The position numbers and the translations under genes are program-made. Source: Calothrix sp. HK-06 (GTDB taxonomy: Bacteria > Cyanobacteriota > Cyanobacteriia > Cyanobacteriales > Nostocaceae). Taken from it: 64,000 nucleotides of DNA. Positions 6,590 through 32,741 of this stretch are shown here, piece by piece. The notes under the pieces were generated by a model, which was not told the origin of the DNA, made no database searches, and was given only the letters and a program-made list of their open reading frames with translations. Where the stretch lies: assembly GCF_001904745.1 (NCBI RefSeq), contig NZ_MRCD01000003.1, positions 62,001 to 126,000 of the forward strand, given 5' to 3'. The number at the start of each line of letters is the position of its first letter. Within the stretch, counting starts at the first letter, position 1.

Positions 6590-7342
6590 TTATGCAATGC
6601 GACTTAAGGCACTATTAAAAGCATATTCAACAGCTTTTGATTCGCTTGGTAATAAAGCTTGCCAAATACGATAATCATTTAAATCTAAGATTAGATTGAC
6701 CATATCATCAATTTTAAGTTGTCTGAGAATTTCGTGCTGTATGTACTCAAATTCAACAGAGTTTCCACCCGCTTCTACAATAGATGTAGCAGCTTGAATA
6801 AATTTTTTCATAACCGCTTGCATATATTTTTCACCTGCGGTTTCGGCGAAAATGGCTGAGGTATGAAGTACTTGATACTCTCTATATAATAAATTAGAAA
6901 TTTTTCTAGCTTCAGTATTATCCCAGCCCAGTGGCAATTGAACATCAAGATACTTGCCTTCTTGATAGCGATACTGAAGGTACTGATTAATATTTATTGT
7001 TTCTTGAGCGAGTTTATCACCTGCTAAAAGTCGATAGAGGGGTTTTAGACTTGTGTCAATTCCAGAGTCCGGGAATACATTTTCTTGACCATCTGGACAT
7101 TCATATAACATGTATGTCCATATTCCAGGACGCTCTACTTCCGATTTATCTGCCTGATAGAAGGTAACTGTACCATCTTCTTCACAATAATAATAAGCGT
7201 TATGAATATCATTAAGGCTACATTTACGTAATTTCATCCACTCCGCAATTTTTCTTAATATGCCAGTGATATGAAGTGGTTGGCTATCAACTTGGATGTA
7301 CCGTTTTCCGGTAATAACAAAGCTATGTAATTTAATCGCCAT
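6590..7342 (-). CDS. Unrecognised protein
   Basis: The 250-residue frame starts at an ATG at 7342 preceded on its strand by AAGGGGACAAT, a good ribosome-binding site. The protein is soluble with no signal peptide. It is rich in aromatic residues in the middle (YYYCEEDG, WTYMLYECPDG) and ends in a helical section (MVNLILDLNDYRIWQALLPSE). I recognise no family. Convergence with crr6 across a palindromic repeat suggests an independent transcription unit. Codon usage resembles neighbours, so it is likely a real gene of unknown function. Confidence 0.7.
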   Translation of the reverse strand: MAIKLHSFVITGKRYIQVDSQPLHITGILRKIAEWMKLRKCSLNDIHNAYYYCEEDGTVTFYQADKSEVERPGIWTYMLYECPDGQENVFPDSGIDTSLKPLYRLLAGDKLAQETININQYLQYRYQEGKYLDVQLPLGWDNTEARKISNLLYREYQVLHTSAIFAETAGEKYMQAVMKKFIQAATSIVEAGGNSVEFEYIQHEILRQLKIDDMVNLILDLNDYRIWQALLPSESKAVEYAFNSALSRIA

Positions 7343-8538
7343 TATATTGTCCCCTTGAGAATATCAAATCTAAAAGTAAATGCACGCCAATCACTTTCAT
7401 TTCGTCAATCAGCAATTCAACCCTATACATCTCCCTTTAGGAGTATTCCAGATTATCTAATTTTATATTTTTAGATAAATGCTACTTGGATTTAATCTGG
7501 ATAATCTGTGAATTGTTAAATGCTATACTTGACAAATTAGCGTTGAGAATAGAACCACAATGTTAATTTAGATAACAATGTGTAGAGACTGACTTTGTTG
7601 TCTTCTCTAATTTCAGTCCTATATAGTGTTCCCAAACAGTTGCCGAAACTAACAAATTAATTAAAAAAATTTCTGTTTTTTTGGATGCGTTCCTGAAACC
7701 CTTACTGTATAAGCTTTTTAAACTCAATATTAGTGCCATGTTTTACAATTACTAGTTATATGAGTAAGCTAAAAGGGCGCCTTAATGCTACAAAGAGTTG
7801 ATATACATGAACTCTCTAACAGCAAAGAAACCTATAAAGCTGATAACAACTTGATGCACTAACCTCAGAACCAAAACCTTCGTTGAAAGACTAATATTTT
7901 ACTTAGCTCTACTCAGATTTGTACAGAGGGGTTAGACCACTCATTTTATTTTTTTAGGTATTATAAATTACAATCGCCACAAACTTTCGGTTCGCTAGCC
8001 TAATGTTACGCTACACACTTGATTATGAGCATTAGAATATCTTACGCTCAGTAAAGTAGTATACATAAAAGTTGCTTTCCTCGCAAAACATGCAATTCCA
8101 ATCCTTGAAAGTTTTTTAATTAGTAAAATCAACCTAAGAACGTATTTGAGGTACCACCATCAAATACAACTCACTATTTCAATCAACTCTCGCCAACTTA
8201 GCTTTATTAACCGAATTGAACAATTTACTGTTAACTTAGTTTGTAACTGGATTAAAGAAAATTCAAGTGGTCGCAATATACTTTTTATCCCATATAACCA
8301 AATATCAGTCTTTAGGTATAGACTTATCTTTCCTCAAGCAGTTGTAGTTAACTTTATTTATTTTCAAAAAATTAAATATTAAATCAAAAGGAAATGTTAA
8401 ACTGTTCGCTTAACTACAACAACCCAGTTTCTGATTTTTAAATAGATAGATATTTTAAATGATTTGAGGTTGTAAAGAAAAATATTAAATAATGTAATTT
8501 GTATCAAGGCAGACTAGTTTGCCTGCCTATAGAACTAA
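7343..8538. other. Gene-free stretch of about 1.2 kb
   Basis: I found no convincing gene or RNA here. The only sizeable frame (8146-8382, +, TTG start, 78 codons) has no ribosome-binding site and an unstructured composition, so I leave it out. One GGCGCC site lies near 7777 and one weak hairpin (AGAGTT/AACTCT) near 7795-7816. The stretch is more AT-rich than its flanks and may be decayed DNA. Confidence 0.5.
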
Positions 8539-29092: not shown

Positions 29093-29866
29093 ATGGAAGT
29101 TATTCCAGCAATTGATTTACTCGAAGGACGTTGTGTACGACTTTATCAAGGAGACTACGCGCAGTCACAAGTTTTTAATGAAAACCCTGTTGAAGTTGCT
29201 CAAGAATGGGTTGCAGCGGGCGCCACTCGATTACATTTGGTAGACCTAGACGGCGCCAAACAGGGTAAACTAGTAAACCTCGAAGCAATACAAGCAATTA
29301 CCCAAGCAGTCTCAATACCTGTAGAAGTTGGTGGAGGGTTACGCGACAGAGAAAGTGTTAAACAACTTTTTGATGTAGGTGTACGCTACTGTATATTAGG
29401 TACCGTCGCAGTTGAAAAACCTGAATTAGTTCAAACGTTAGCACAAGAATATCCCGGTCAAATAATTGTTGGTATTGATGCTCGCAATGGTCTTGTCGCT
29501 ACACGGGGTTGGCTGGAAACTTCAGAAATACAAGCAACCCAACTCGCAATACAAATGCAAGAATTAGGCGCCTCGGCTATTATATACACCGATATCCATC
29601 GTGATGGTACTATGCAAGGCCCCAACCTTGATGCACTTCGCGAACTTGCTAGTAAAATCTCAATTCCAATTATCGCTTCTGGTGGAGTTAGTTCTATCAC
29701 CGATTTACTTAGCTTACTCGCTCTCGAACCCCAAGGTGTAACAGGTGCAATCGTTGGACGTGCTATTTACACAGGTGATGTTAACTTGCGTGAAGCCATA
29801 AAAGCAGTAGGCCCCGGACGCATTCAAGATATTCCTCCAAACCTAGACTTTTCTACCTTCGCATAA
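29093..29866 (+). CDS. hisA: ProFAR isomerase of histidine biosynthesis
   Basis: HisA opens the ribose of ProFAR, the fourth step of histidine synthesis. The 257-residue TIM barrel starts [21 protein letters not shown], with the first catalytic Asp in AIDL. It has [25 protein letters not shown], the IVGIDARNG block with the second Asp, [14 protein letters not shown] and [12 protein letters not shown], all standard. Full length, with a C-terminal tail of about 15 residues beyond the barrel. It is solitary; the other his genes are elsewhere. Confidence 0.95.
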
Positions 29867-29875
29867 TAAAGACAT

Positions 29876-29901
29876 GTAGAACAGGCATCCTGCCTGTTTT
29901 A
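29876..29901 (+). terminator. Repeat-type terminator of hisA
   Basis: ACAGGCA (29881-29887) pairs perfectly with TGCCTGT (29891-29897) around TCC and is followed by TTT. It is a minimal copy of the GGCATCC dispersed repeat serving as a terminator 14 bases after the hisA stop. Confidence 0.75.
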
Positions 29902-30235
29902 TAAAATTTTGTTTGAATATTTCCGGATTCAGAAATTCCGTCGGTGTATCTCAAGTTATGGATAGTTACCAAGCTACTGATAGCTAGGCTCATTCAATTT
30001 GAAATTTCAATATACAATTTCAATATCTTTTTCAATATCTTTATAAATCAACAAAAATTTAATGGGTTTCCTCTTTATAGAGACGCAGTGCGTCTCTTTT
30101 TTTGTTTGCAATAACTCTAATATCTCAGCATCAATACATAATAACTAATGTCAAAAAAATATCTTTCGTTTCCGGATTCAAGAAAACGACATATGTAGTA
30201 ATACCTGTAACCAACCACAACAAAGGTAAACTAAA
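29902..30235. other. Non-coding leader before the two small ORFs
   Basis: No gene is seen. The 12-mer TTTCCGGATTCA occurs twice (about 29920 and 30169). A GAGACGCAGTGCGTCTC hairpin with a T-run is described separately at 30078-30100. Confidence 0.5.
30078..30100. terminator. GTAGAGACG-family hairpin with T-run
   Basis: AGAGACGCA/TGCGTCTCT is a perfect stem followed by TTTTTTT, a minimal copy of the dispersed palindrome family. Its position before the small ORFs suggests read-through control or termination of a transcript from the left. Confidence 0.7.
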
Positions 30236-30358
30236 ATGTCACAAAAAAGACCAACACCACCCACAAAAGATAGACCATTTAAAACAGATAACGGGTTTAC
30301 TGTAGATACGAATAAACCCAATGGTGACAAGAGCAATACTAAAAAGTCAACTCCATAA
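30236..30358 (+). CDS. Small Pro/Lys/Thr-rich protein, 40 residues
   Basis: The ATG at 30236 follows AAAGGTAAACTAAA, an acceptable ribosome-binding site. The product is 40 residues, opens MSQKRPTPPTKDRPFKTDNG and is basic, highly polar and free of Cys, with no membrane segment, so it is probably disordered. A second ORF of the same length follows 90 bases on and starts in a similar way (MAQPKRQDPPP). I know no family. The matched length and start support a real gene; coding status is inferred, not proven. Confidence 0.5.
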   Translation: MSQKRPTPPTKDRPFKTDNGFTVDTNKPNGDKSNTKKSTP

Positions 30359-30448
30359 ATCATTTATTTTCGCTTTTTATTTCATTCATTAATAGAGACA
30401 AAAAATAAATATTATCAACTGTAAAGACAAATTACCAAGGAGATTATC

Positions 30449-30571
30449 ATGGCACAACCAAAACGACAAGACCCACCACCAAGAACTGGTCAACCAATCA
30501 TCAGAGAACCAGGTTTGCTACCACAAAATAATTCATCCCAACAAAATAATATCAAAAAAAATAAGCCTTAA
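30449..30571 (+). CDS. Small Pro/Gln/Asn-rich protein, 40 residues
   Basis: The ATG at 30449 follows a strong Shine-Dalgarno (AAGGAGATTATC). The product has 40 residues, opens MAQPKRQDPPPRTGQPIIRE and ends KKNKP, and is basic and disordered by composition. It is the same length as the preceding small ORF and shares the pattern M-(S/A)-Q-x-x-R with an early PP. An AAACCCGGTTTCT inverted repeat follows 7 bases after the stop and may end the transcript. Function unknown. Confidence 0.6.
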   Translation: MAQPKRQDPPPRTGQPIIREPGLLPQNNSSQQNNIKKNKP

Positions 30572-30577
30572 TAAAAC

Positions 30578-30608
30578 AAACCCGGTTTCTCAAATAAACC
30601 GGGTTTCT
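30578..30608. repeat. AAACCCGGTTTCT inverted repeat, copy 2
   Basis: AAACCCGGTTTCT (30578-30590) and AAACCGGGTTTCT (30596-30608) are inverted copies around a 5-base spacer, between convergent genes. Confidence 0.8.
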
Positions 30609-30620
30609 GAACCCAATTAA

Positions 30621-31727
30621 TTATTTAGCTTTCATTTGACTTTTGGCTTGTTCTAAAGCAATTTCTTTCATTGCTTGATAAGAGTTTACACTCGAAGAAC
30701 CTTCGATTGCCTTGACTGCCAAATCTTGAACTTGTTTTAATGCAGATTCAAGCTGTCTGGAAAGATTTTGAATGCGTGCGTCTTGGTTAGAAATAGTTTG
30801 CTCTAAAGATTGAAGTCTTTGTTCGTAGAAGCGCTTTTGCCCGTCTACGTCTTTTGCTAACAAGTCAGATTTAATTTTGGCTTGGTAATATGCAATTCCT
30901 TTACCTTCTTCAGTTGCTTTCTTAATTGCTCCTTCTTTTTCTTTTGGCAAAGCTTCGACTTTCGCTTTTAATTCTTCAAATTGTTGCTCACGCTCAGAAA
31001 TACCTTTTTCGCGAGCTTCCCATTGTTTATTCGTTTCTTGCTGTAATTCTTCTAGCTGAGTATATAAAGCTTTTTGTTGCTGTTCGTACTCGTCTATTGC
31101 GAGTTTGCGTTGCAGTTCTAAATCATATTTATACCCAGATTCTTCACGCTGACGACTTCGAGAAAGATTATCATTACGTTCTTTGACTGTTAACTTGTGC
31201 GCTTCTTGTTCCTTTTGCCAAGAACTTCGCATTTCCTGAATTTGCTGCAATAGCGTTTCTGACTGCTTTAAATATTCTTCTTGGTAAGTTTTAGAGTTAT
31301 TTTCATAAGTTTCGACAAGAGTGTCTAGGGTATTCTCTTTTACTTCTAGCTTATGTAGTTCTTTGAGTTGCTGTATTTCCTGCTCAAAAGATTGCTTGAC
31401 TTCTGCAAGCTTTAATGCCCTTGCTGTTAATAGTTCAGATAATTCATTCGCAGCACTCCCAAACCCCATTTGAATTTTAATCAAGCTTTCAATCGTCGAG
31501 TTCATTTTTTGTTGAACGCTTGCGGATGAATTCATAGTTGTTTTCTCTACTGCTACTGGTTTTTCTTTGACTGTGGTTTTAGGCGCTGATGCCGTACTAT
31601 TATTTGAACTATTTTTTGCTGCTGCATCAAGTTCTGTTTTCAATGCTGCCTTCTCTTTGGCTAACTCTTCGTATGCTTGGAGGATTTCGGCTTTGGTATT
31701 TTTATCTGTTGGCTTTTTCGCTGGCAC
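30621..31727 (-). CDS. Coiled-coil protein A of a paralogous pair
   Basis: This 368-residue soluble protein starts with a Lys/Thr/Ser-rich disordered region (1-75), then has near-continuous heptad repeats from about 80 to 345 (for example VKQSFEQEIQQLKELHKLEV and LEELQQETNKQWEAREKG). It ends YEQRLQSLEQTISNQDARIQ, then LESALKQVQDLAVKAIEG. The end is clearly related to the upstream neighbour's YELKVKSLEETIQKQ and TTLKQAQDLAMRAF, so the two are paralogues. Paired coiled-coil-rich proteins of this sort in filamentous cyanobacteria have been described as filament-forming (cytoskeleton-like). That role is inference here. Confidence 0.8.
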   Translation of the reverse strand: MPAKKPTDKNTKAEILQAYEELAKEKAALKTELDAAAKNSSNNSTASAPKTTVKEKPVAVEKTTMNSSASVQQKMNSTIESLIKIQMGFGSAANELSELLTARALKLAEVKQSFEQEIQQLKELHKLEVKENTLDTLVETYENNSKTYQEEYLKQSETLLQQIQEMRSSWQKEQEAHKLTVKERNDNLSRSRQREESGYKYDLELQRKLAIDEYEQQQKALYTQLEELQQETNKQWEAREKGISEREQQFEELKAKVEALPKEKEGAIKKATEEGKGIAYYQAKIKSDLLAKDVDGQKRFYEQRLQSLEQTISNQDARIQNLSRQLESALKQVQDLAVKAIEGSSSVNSYQAMKEIALEQAKSQMKAK

Positions 31728-31772: not shown

Positions 31773-32741
31773 CTATTGATTGAAAGCACGCATCGCTAAA
31801 TCTTGTGCTTGTTTGAGCGTTGTTTGGAGTTGGGTAGAGATACTTTCGATTTGTTCGACTTGTTTTTGGATTGTTTCTTCGAGAGACTTTACTTTGAGTT
31901 CGTAACTTTGCTTCGTTCCTTCCCACTCTTTCTCAAGTAAGTCAGCTTCAACTTTGGCTTTTTGGCTTGTGTCTTTTATTGCTTCTTCACGCGCTTTTTT
32001 AACTGCTTCTTCTAATTCTGCTGGAAATGCAGTGACTTTTTTTTGATATTCACCCAACAATGTTTGATTTGCTTTCAGGGTTGTCTCGCGTTCTGCCCAA
32101 TTTTTTTCTCTTGTTATGGCGCCAAATTGTAGTTCGCGTTCTAAGTTACGCTTTTTAGCTTCGTATGCGTCGGTATTAATTTTACGAGTATTTTCGAGTT
32201 TATACTGATAGTCTTCTGTTTCTTGCTGACGCTGTTTGAAAAGCAGTTGATTATACACTTGTACAGCTTCATCGAACTCGGCTTGTTCCTTAAGCCAATC
32301 TTTACGAGCTTGTGCTGCTTCCTTTTCTAATGCTTCACGCTTACTTTGAATATCTTGTTCAAGAGTTTTCAATTTCTCTTGATGCTCCTGCGTCAAAATA
32401 TCAACCGCATCTGCTACGACTCTTACTTGTTGAATCTCTTGCAACAGAGCAGTTTCAATCTCTATACCTCGGTTGAGTTCATCGAGCTTCGAGTTCTCTT
32501 TGGCTAACTTCTCAGATAAGCTGTTGACGATGCCGCCAAACTCTAGCTGTAAATCTGCCAAGCTTTTAACTATACTATCAACGGTATATGTAGAAGCGGC
32601 TTCGAGAATTTGTTTATTTTTAGCTTTCTCCGCAACTTCGAGCTTTGTAGCTATCTTCGACTCAAGCTGTTTACGCTCGACAATGATTTGCTCGAAAGCT
32701 TGCATTAACTGCCGTTTAGCGTCTTTATTCGCAACGTCCAT
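31773..32741 (-). CDS. Coiled-coil protein B of a paralogous pair
   Basis: This 322-residue soluble protein is almost entirely coiled coil (LMQAFEQIIVERKQLESKIA near the start; EAKKRNLERELQFGAITREK in the centre), with no disordered head like that of protein A. It is transcribed first, and protein A follows 45 bp downstream, so both are probably in one operon and their products may co-assemble. The shared block (residues about 60-90) reads VDSIVKSLADLQLEFGGIVN against STIESLIKIQMGFGSAANEL in A. No catalytic or membrane segment is present. Confidence 0.8.
   Translation of the reverse strand: MDVANKDAKRQLMQAFEQIIVERKQLESKIATKLEVAEKAKNKQILEAASTYTVDSIVKSLADLQLEFGGIVNSLSEKLAKENSKLDELNRGIEIETALLQEIQQVRVVADAVDILTQEHQEKLKTLEQDIQSKREALEKEAAQARKDWLKEQAEFDEAVQVYNQLLFKQRQQETEDYQYKLENTRKINTDAYEAKKRNLERELQFGAITREKNWAERETTLKANQTLLGEYQKKVTAFPAELEEAVKKAREEAIKDTSQKAKVEADLLEKEWEGTKQSYELKVKSLEETIQKQVEQIESISTQLQTTLKQAQDLAMRAFNQ

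Follow-up and report, generated by a model that had tools for sequence, protein, structure and literature searches.

The DIF1 element, TCCGGA positioned 35 bp before the start, has been described as a requirement for the heterocyst-specific expression of patS and hetR; its replacement abolished the expression of patS in heterocysts, and DIF1 was reported to depend on hetZ (PMC7377430). The HetR- and HetZ-dependent reading of DIF1 in cells committing to the heterocyst fate has likewise been published, for genes other than those discussed below. A synthetic minimal promoter of 48 bases has been built in which DIF1 and an extended -10 element are 17 bp apart (PMC6133370). Short RNAs driven by DIF1 from tandem units with their own promoters are exemplified by NsiR1 (PMC9045159). 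Two further transcripts of Nostoc PCC 7120, NsiR8 (171 nt, HetR-dependent, and heterocyst-specific) and NsiR9 (122 nt), were published as RNAs, with NsiR8 being induced by nitrogen stress except in a hetR mutant (PMC4734099).

The locus described here resembles nsiR1, patS, patX, and hetR in carrying TCCGGA at -35 and 17 bases up to the -10 element (PMC6133370, PMC7377430), a likeness of promoter sequence, and differs from them in its products, which would be basic microproteins of a GKPxKTE family and an RNA ending in an element termed R1. Compared by description, it also departs from the NsiR1 arrangement of 12 tandem copies of approximately 60 nt upstream of hetF: the RNA predicted in the window is about 146 nt in length, lies beside hisA and a coiled-coil gene (CC1), and possesses an intrinsic terminator as well as protein-coding sister units. 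The size of NsiR8 fits that of a type-B transcript of the new family (estimated at ~26 + 111 + 35 nt), a resemblance of length.

The window, i.e., the whole 64 kb stretch of DNA analysed, comes from a genome of 10 Mb, which shares its GTDB genus with Dulcicalothrix desertica PCC 7102 (Nostocales by taxonomy), Calothrix sp. PCC 7716, PCC 7103, NIES-4105, and FI2-JRJ7. The paralogy of the two ORFs, the DIF1-type promoter in front of them, and the RNA unit just upstream all go beyond the preliminary description of this DNA.

DIF1-type promoters beside hisA

The forward-strand gene at 29093-29866, which is taken to be hisA, is the conserved left neighbour of the block under study. Only two TCCGGA-N17-TGTA sites occur in the 64 kb, starting at 29922 and 30171, and TCCGGA by itself is not enriched there (7 found against 5.85 expected). 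The distal site (29922-29948, +), with TCCGGA at 29922-29927, a 17-base spacer, and TGTA at 29945-29948, is kept in the genus alignment, while the proximal site (30171-30197, +) combines TCCGGA at 30171-30176 with TGTA at 30194-30197 across a spacer of the same length and stands before ORF1, where the conserved stretch opens with TCCGGA at -65.

The same element recurs in front of the 73 family members introduced below, counted once four long frames had been manually reset to start at the conserved Met. Between -53 and -76 from the ATG, the best TCCGGA site was exact in 30 members and carried one, two, or three mismatches in 29, 10, and 4, respectively, so that 59 of the 73 have an exact or one-mismatch site; four other 23-base intervals yielded 0, 0, 1, and 0 exact copies. 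The strict pattern TCCGGA-N17-TGTA was found for 27/73 members (22 genomes) and the relaxed pattern TC[CT]GGA-N16-18-TGTA for 45/73 (35 genomes), each against a shuffle mean of 0.01. The spacer before TGTA measured 17 bases in 46 of 49 measurable cases and 16 in the other three. At both window sites TCCGGA falls near -35, a placement deduced rather than mapped, and the 17-base distance to an extended -10 agrees with the published class, the comparison being made on the spacer and not on the -10 logo. The promoters of ORF1 and of the family can thus be considered to match the DIF1 class, and heterocyst specificity would follow from that class. ORF2 lacks a DIF1 site of its own and has a strong Shine-Dalgarno sequence, hence it is probably co-transcribed with ORF1.

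A SigJ J-Box promoter of the hormogonium type was considered and rejected, as the published GGGaAtacT (PMC6495340) is unmatched and no GGG precedes AATACC in the ORF1 leader. Elsewhere in the window, at 7452 on the reverse strand, TCTGGA, separated from TGTA by 16-18 bases, lies ~110 bases upstream of a 250-residue ORF (6590-7342, -) and is possibly a weak DIF1 promoter.

ORF1 and ORF2 are tandem microprotein genes under purifying selection

The two ORFs of 40 codons each proposed in the preliminary description are confirmed, at 30236-30358 (ORF1, MSQKRPTPPTKDRPFKTDNGFTVDTNKPNGDKSNTKKSTP) and 30449-30571 (ORF2, MAQPKRQDPPPRTGQPIIREPGLLPQNNSSQQNNIKKNKP), both on the forward strand, and orthologues of both stand in tandem in 7/7 genomes of the genus. 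Each was said to have its own ribosome-binding site, and each does, that of ORF2 being strong (AAGGAG, 30437-30442) and that of ORF1 weak (AAAGG, 30222-30226). Their equal length, correct for the window, is a coincidence, since relatives of ORF1 vary from 40 to 42 aa and those of ORF2 from 39 to 42 aa. The assertion that the two are otherwise different did not survive: in the most divergent genome of the genus (G076), they are clearly paralogous (MSRKLPKPPTPGGRPFKTDNGFRADVN... versus MTDKKRQKPPQNGKPPISETGFSKDIN...), and a joint alignment shows M1, P8, P9, P14, G20, and K37 to be common to both.

Both checks suggested with that description, namely frame conservation among relatives and the comparison of synonymous with non-synonymous changes, came out in favour of genes. 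In the genus alignment, insertions and deletions within the ORFs preserve the reading frame, whereas those between ORF1 and ORF2 do not. Pooled over all pairs among the seven genomes of the genus, which are non-independent, pN/pS was 0.47 for ORF1 and 0.63 for ORF2. Single-pair tests of selection gave p=0.0018 (PCC 7716/NIES-4105), p=0.0007 (PCC 7103/G076), and p=0.003 (NIES-4105/G076) for ORF1, and p=0.0099 (PCC 7716/NIES-4105) and p=0.079 (NIES-4105/G076) for ORF2; within the close group, ORF1 compared with that of FI2-JRJ7 was near neutral on few changes (dN/dS 1.04-1.95). Family-wide, 13 non-overlapping genome pairs yielded a pS of 0.321 and a pN of 0.090, i.e., a ratio of 0.28 (Fisher p=1.8e-22), which means that these are real genes whose ORFs matter as proteins. 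ORF1 and ORF2 are genuine microprotein genes, tandem duplicates maintained as proteins by purifying selection.

The new short peptide family that had been envisaged is borne out by relatives across the Nostocaceae. Its members are basic, 29-63 aa long, and share the core [K/R]xPPxxGKPxKTExG, a definition under which both ORFs fall as type A; in type B the core sits at the C-terminus (..RKKPLNNGKPNKTDP, ..KRPQPPKGLGKPKTE). Neither Pfam nor NCBIfam holds a model for ORF1, ORF2, or eight relatives at E 10, PHROGs returned nothing for the two ORFs, PDB sequences gave nothing credible for them (one match at E 0.076), and plasmid records contained no match to 29850-30620. No paper naming the GKPxKTE family was found in full text, with supplements and most subscription journals lying outside the scope of the search.

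An HMM scan of 67 regions, each the 3 kb beyond the 3' end of CC1 in 66 genomes and the window, recovered 73 family ORFs (44 of type A and 29 of type B) in 49 regions at E up to 0.3, all on the strand convergent to CC1; the opposite strand gave no match at threshold, and 18 regions had no detected member. The HMMs were built from members in the same regions, and the scores there are therefore inflated. An earlier regex scan, which had reached 49/67 separately, was dropped in favour of the HMM scan on account of false matches in repeat frames such as VSIPNRDF. Beyond these regions, the joint ORF1/ORF2 profile found the motif in 32/192 Nostocaceae genomes at E <= 0.05, several of the weakest being inside long frames and probably due to chance, and the type-B profile found it in 121/217 Nostocaceae genomes and 27/56 genera. 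Order-wide, a type-A profile matched 3/291 genomes, all Nostocaceae, which is weak evidence of absence elsewhere since most of the Nostocaceae sampled escaped it too; a type-B profile matched 18/291, of which 16 were Nostocaceae, with weak matches in G270 and G429 (the latter at E 0.009). Within the scope of these searches, the family is restricted to the heterocyst-forming clade Nostocaceae. The G270 match, outside Nostocaceae (L308:1-4001), is a 42-residue frame (..RQPQNYGKPYKRD..) that has the motif and lacks an ATG, either a distant relative or chance.

A Shine-Dalgarno core precedes 19/44 type-A and 4/29 type-B members, and many members do without one. A third branch, type C (MSENNN..QPPKTIGKPPKTEF..), was observed at other loci (L293-L303, L305-L307) of Nostoc-like genomes; its members have a strong AAGGAG and no proper DIF1 promoter, which implies that the protein family is not driven solely by DIF1 and that the motif has uses beyond this promoter.

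The ORF1 and ORF2 proteins, of roughly 4.5 kDa and rich in Pro, have pI values of 10.1 and 11.1, against family means of 10.8 (44 of type A) and 10.5 (29 of type B). The disorder ascribed to them earlier is consistent with an AlphaFold2 model of ORF1 (12 rows), which contained no helix or strand element and had a pTM of 0.19, with mean pLDDT values of 82 and 75 for residues 1-20 and 61 and 58 for residues 21-40; both proteins are probably unstructured.

The explanation that accounts best for the whole, and which is considered rather likely, is that the locus encodes DIF1-driven microproteins of cells becoming heterocysts, which would serve as linear-motif ligands, with the upstream RNA acting separately. 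Nitrogen step-down would work through HetR and then HetZ on the DIF1 promoters to give an ORF1-ORF2 mRNA and the R1 RNA in future heterocysts; both would be made in (pro)heterocysts, if DIF1 is here, too, read only in heterocyst-committing cells. The role as disordered linear-motif ligands is suggested by the conserved core together with the amino-acid composition and the predicted lack of structure, and GKPxKTE may be the docking site for a single partner, a protein undergoing remodelling at an early stage of differentiation.

The candidate small RNA upstream of ORF1

The distal promoter is followed by ~146 bases devoid of a conserved ORF, and the predicted RNA (29957-30102, +) has its start placed 35 bases from DIF1 according to the distance published for that class (PMC7377430). 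It terminates in R1 (30045-30114, +), in which TAATGGGTTTCCTCT (30060-30074) precedes a terminator hairpin, AGAGACG..CGTCTCT (stem 30079-30097, +), and a T-run. This unit, which has the same kind of promoter as ORF1, is probably a small RNA, and it would act separately through the TAATGGGTTTCCTCT stretch.

A rival explanation, possible though somewhat doubtful, takes the DIF1 transcripts to be mainly small RNAs in an RNA-first or dual-function locus, with the ORFs as a lineage-dependent addition within them. Where units were mapped, unit 1 consists of DIF1, a type-A ORF, and R1, and unit 2 of DIF1, a type-B or type-A ORF, and then CC1; in 12 mapped genomes, the window included, DIF1 leads to R1 without an intervening family ORF, indicating that the RNA outlives the ORF. 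The R1 end recurs across many genera whether or not an ORF accompanies it, and the R1 covariance model scored at least 40 bits in 37/66 fetched CC1-side loci, the model having been built from 21 sequences (20 from named loci) partly drawn from the same genomes as the tested loci. In the 21-sequence alignment, TAATGGGTTTCCTCT, the hairpin, and the T-run are kept, and the 15 bases of TAATGGGTTTCCTCT are invariant, an invariance due in part to the sequences having been chosen by GGGTTTCCTC. In its own genome, R1 has one strong match (E 3.8e-12), the next (E 0.006) being probably ordinary terminators.

Several observations weigh against this explanation. The family-wide selection on the ORFs shows that they matter as proteins; the hairpin pairs of R1 display no compensatory change, and its fold z-score is only -1.55. 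The complement of the R1 seed, allowing at most one mismatch, occurs at 6 sites in its own genome (one being R1 itself) versus 16 control sites, and the other five sites all fall outside the ribosome-binding sites of evident genes. As to known RNA families, an Rfam search of 29800-30700 gave no convincing match, the best (E 0.022) falling below the gathering score and on the other strand, and six relatives gave nothing at the gathering score.

Coiled-coil neighbours and the remaining alternatives

Past ORF2, a terminator-like hairpin (30578-30606, -) lies in the gap before the convergent, conserved CC1 (30621-31727, -; 368 aa), behind which lies its relative and usual partner CC2 (31773-32741, -; 322 aa). 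The coiled-coil pair does adjoin the ORFs on the other strand, as first described; being ahead of it is to be understood as a tail-to-tail arrangement, with the ORFs facing the 3' end of CC1. Both proteins match phrog_29668, a phage-protein family of unknown function (E 1e-25 and 7e-15), and CC1 resembles gp268 of Bacillus phage G (28% over 285 residues, E 4e-16). In three genomes (G014, G060, and G063), CC1/CC2 appear to be fragments with stops, and in two of them, G014 and G060, the adjoining microprotein ORF remains whole. A paired coiled-coil set is also known from Anabaena, in which the genes of ZicK and ZacK are adjacent. These coiled-coil-rich proteins depend on each other for heteropolymer formation (PMC7766704), and CC1/CC2 are likened to them by description, with no identity claimed.

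An alternative judged unlikely is that CC1/CC2 have the microproteins as their partners or regulators, which might, for instance, cap or bundle a coiled-coil filament while cells differentiate. The neighbourhood itself speaks for such a role: the family ORFs of the 49 regions lie 50-1365 bases from the 3' end of CC1, and a family ORF accompanies CC1 at 28 of the 80 named hisA loci, occurs without CC1 in the sequence covered at 6, and is missing beside CC1 at 5. The genes are, however, convergent and do not form one operon, and the ORFs are kept beside a reduced or broken CC1 (G060, G014, and G067), in genomes giving no CC1 match (G076 and G005), and where CC1 is distant (another contig in G002, ~300 kb away in G102), so that CC1 is unnecessary for their retention. 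Conversely, Chlorogloea sp. CCALA 695 (Chroococcales by taxonomy), which is non-heterocystous and provides one of the five loci having CC1 alone, has hisA, CC1, and CC2 (CC1 at 58% and CC2 at 60% identity) with a tRNA-Arg in the gap and no family ORF; TCCGGA is also absent from the 8.8 kb of this locus, which is weak on its own as only 1.0 was expected. Thirty loci (L089-L100, L102-L104, and L107-L121), 29 of them non-Nostocales by title and several short, contain neither CC1 nor a family ORF. Most simply, the hisA-CC1-CC2 block would be the older arrangement, which the DIF1 units then joined within the heterocyst-forming lineage.

The microproteins might instead be diffusible peptides that act on HetR as inhibitors, after the manner of PatS/PatX/HetN: their size is similarly small, and the promoter class is that of patS and patX (PMC7377430); this identity is nevertheless very improbable, as the RG(S/T)GR pentapeptide occurs in 0/73 members and no hydrophobic N-terminal stretch is visible by eye. 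That the ORFs arose by chance in A+C-rich low-complexity sequence, as their shortness, biased composition, and lack of a family model might suggest, is scarcely credible in view of the 13-pair selection test and of the conserved frame and motif, the signs of selection, and the constant promoter spacing seen in numerous genera.

A more speculative possibility, regarded as tentative, is a heterocyst-specific dual-function locus in which each DIF1 unit gives an RNA that serves as mRNA for a GKPxKTE microprotein and has a conserved trans-acting seed at the 3' end; in some genera, including that of the window, the upstream unit would have shed its ORF to become a pure small RNA, the downstream unit keeping the proteins. 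If so, some published HetR-dependent "non-coding" RNAs would be microprotein mRNAs. The combination of TCCGGA-N17-TGTA with a short ORF, of the sort easily skipped in annotation, offers a base-precise signature by which more such genes may be sought. Given that heterocyst differentiation is a leading model of bacterial cell-type patterning, the microprotein family and the candidate small RNA would constitute testable players in its first hours.
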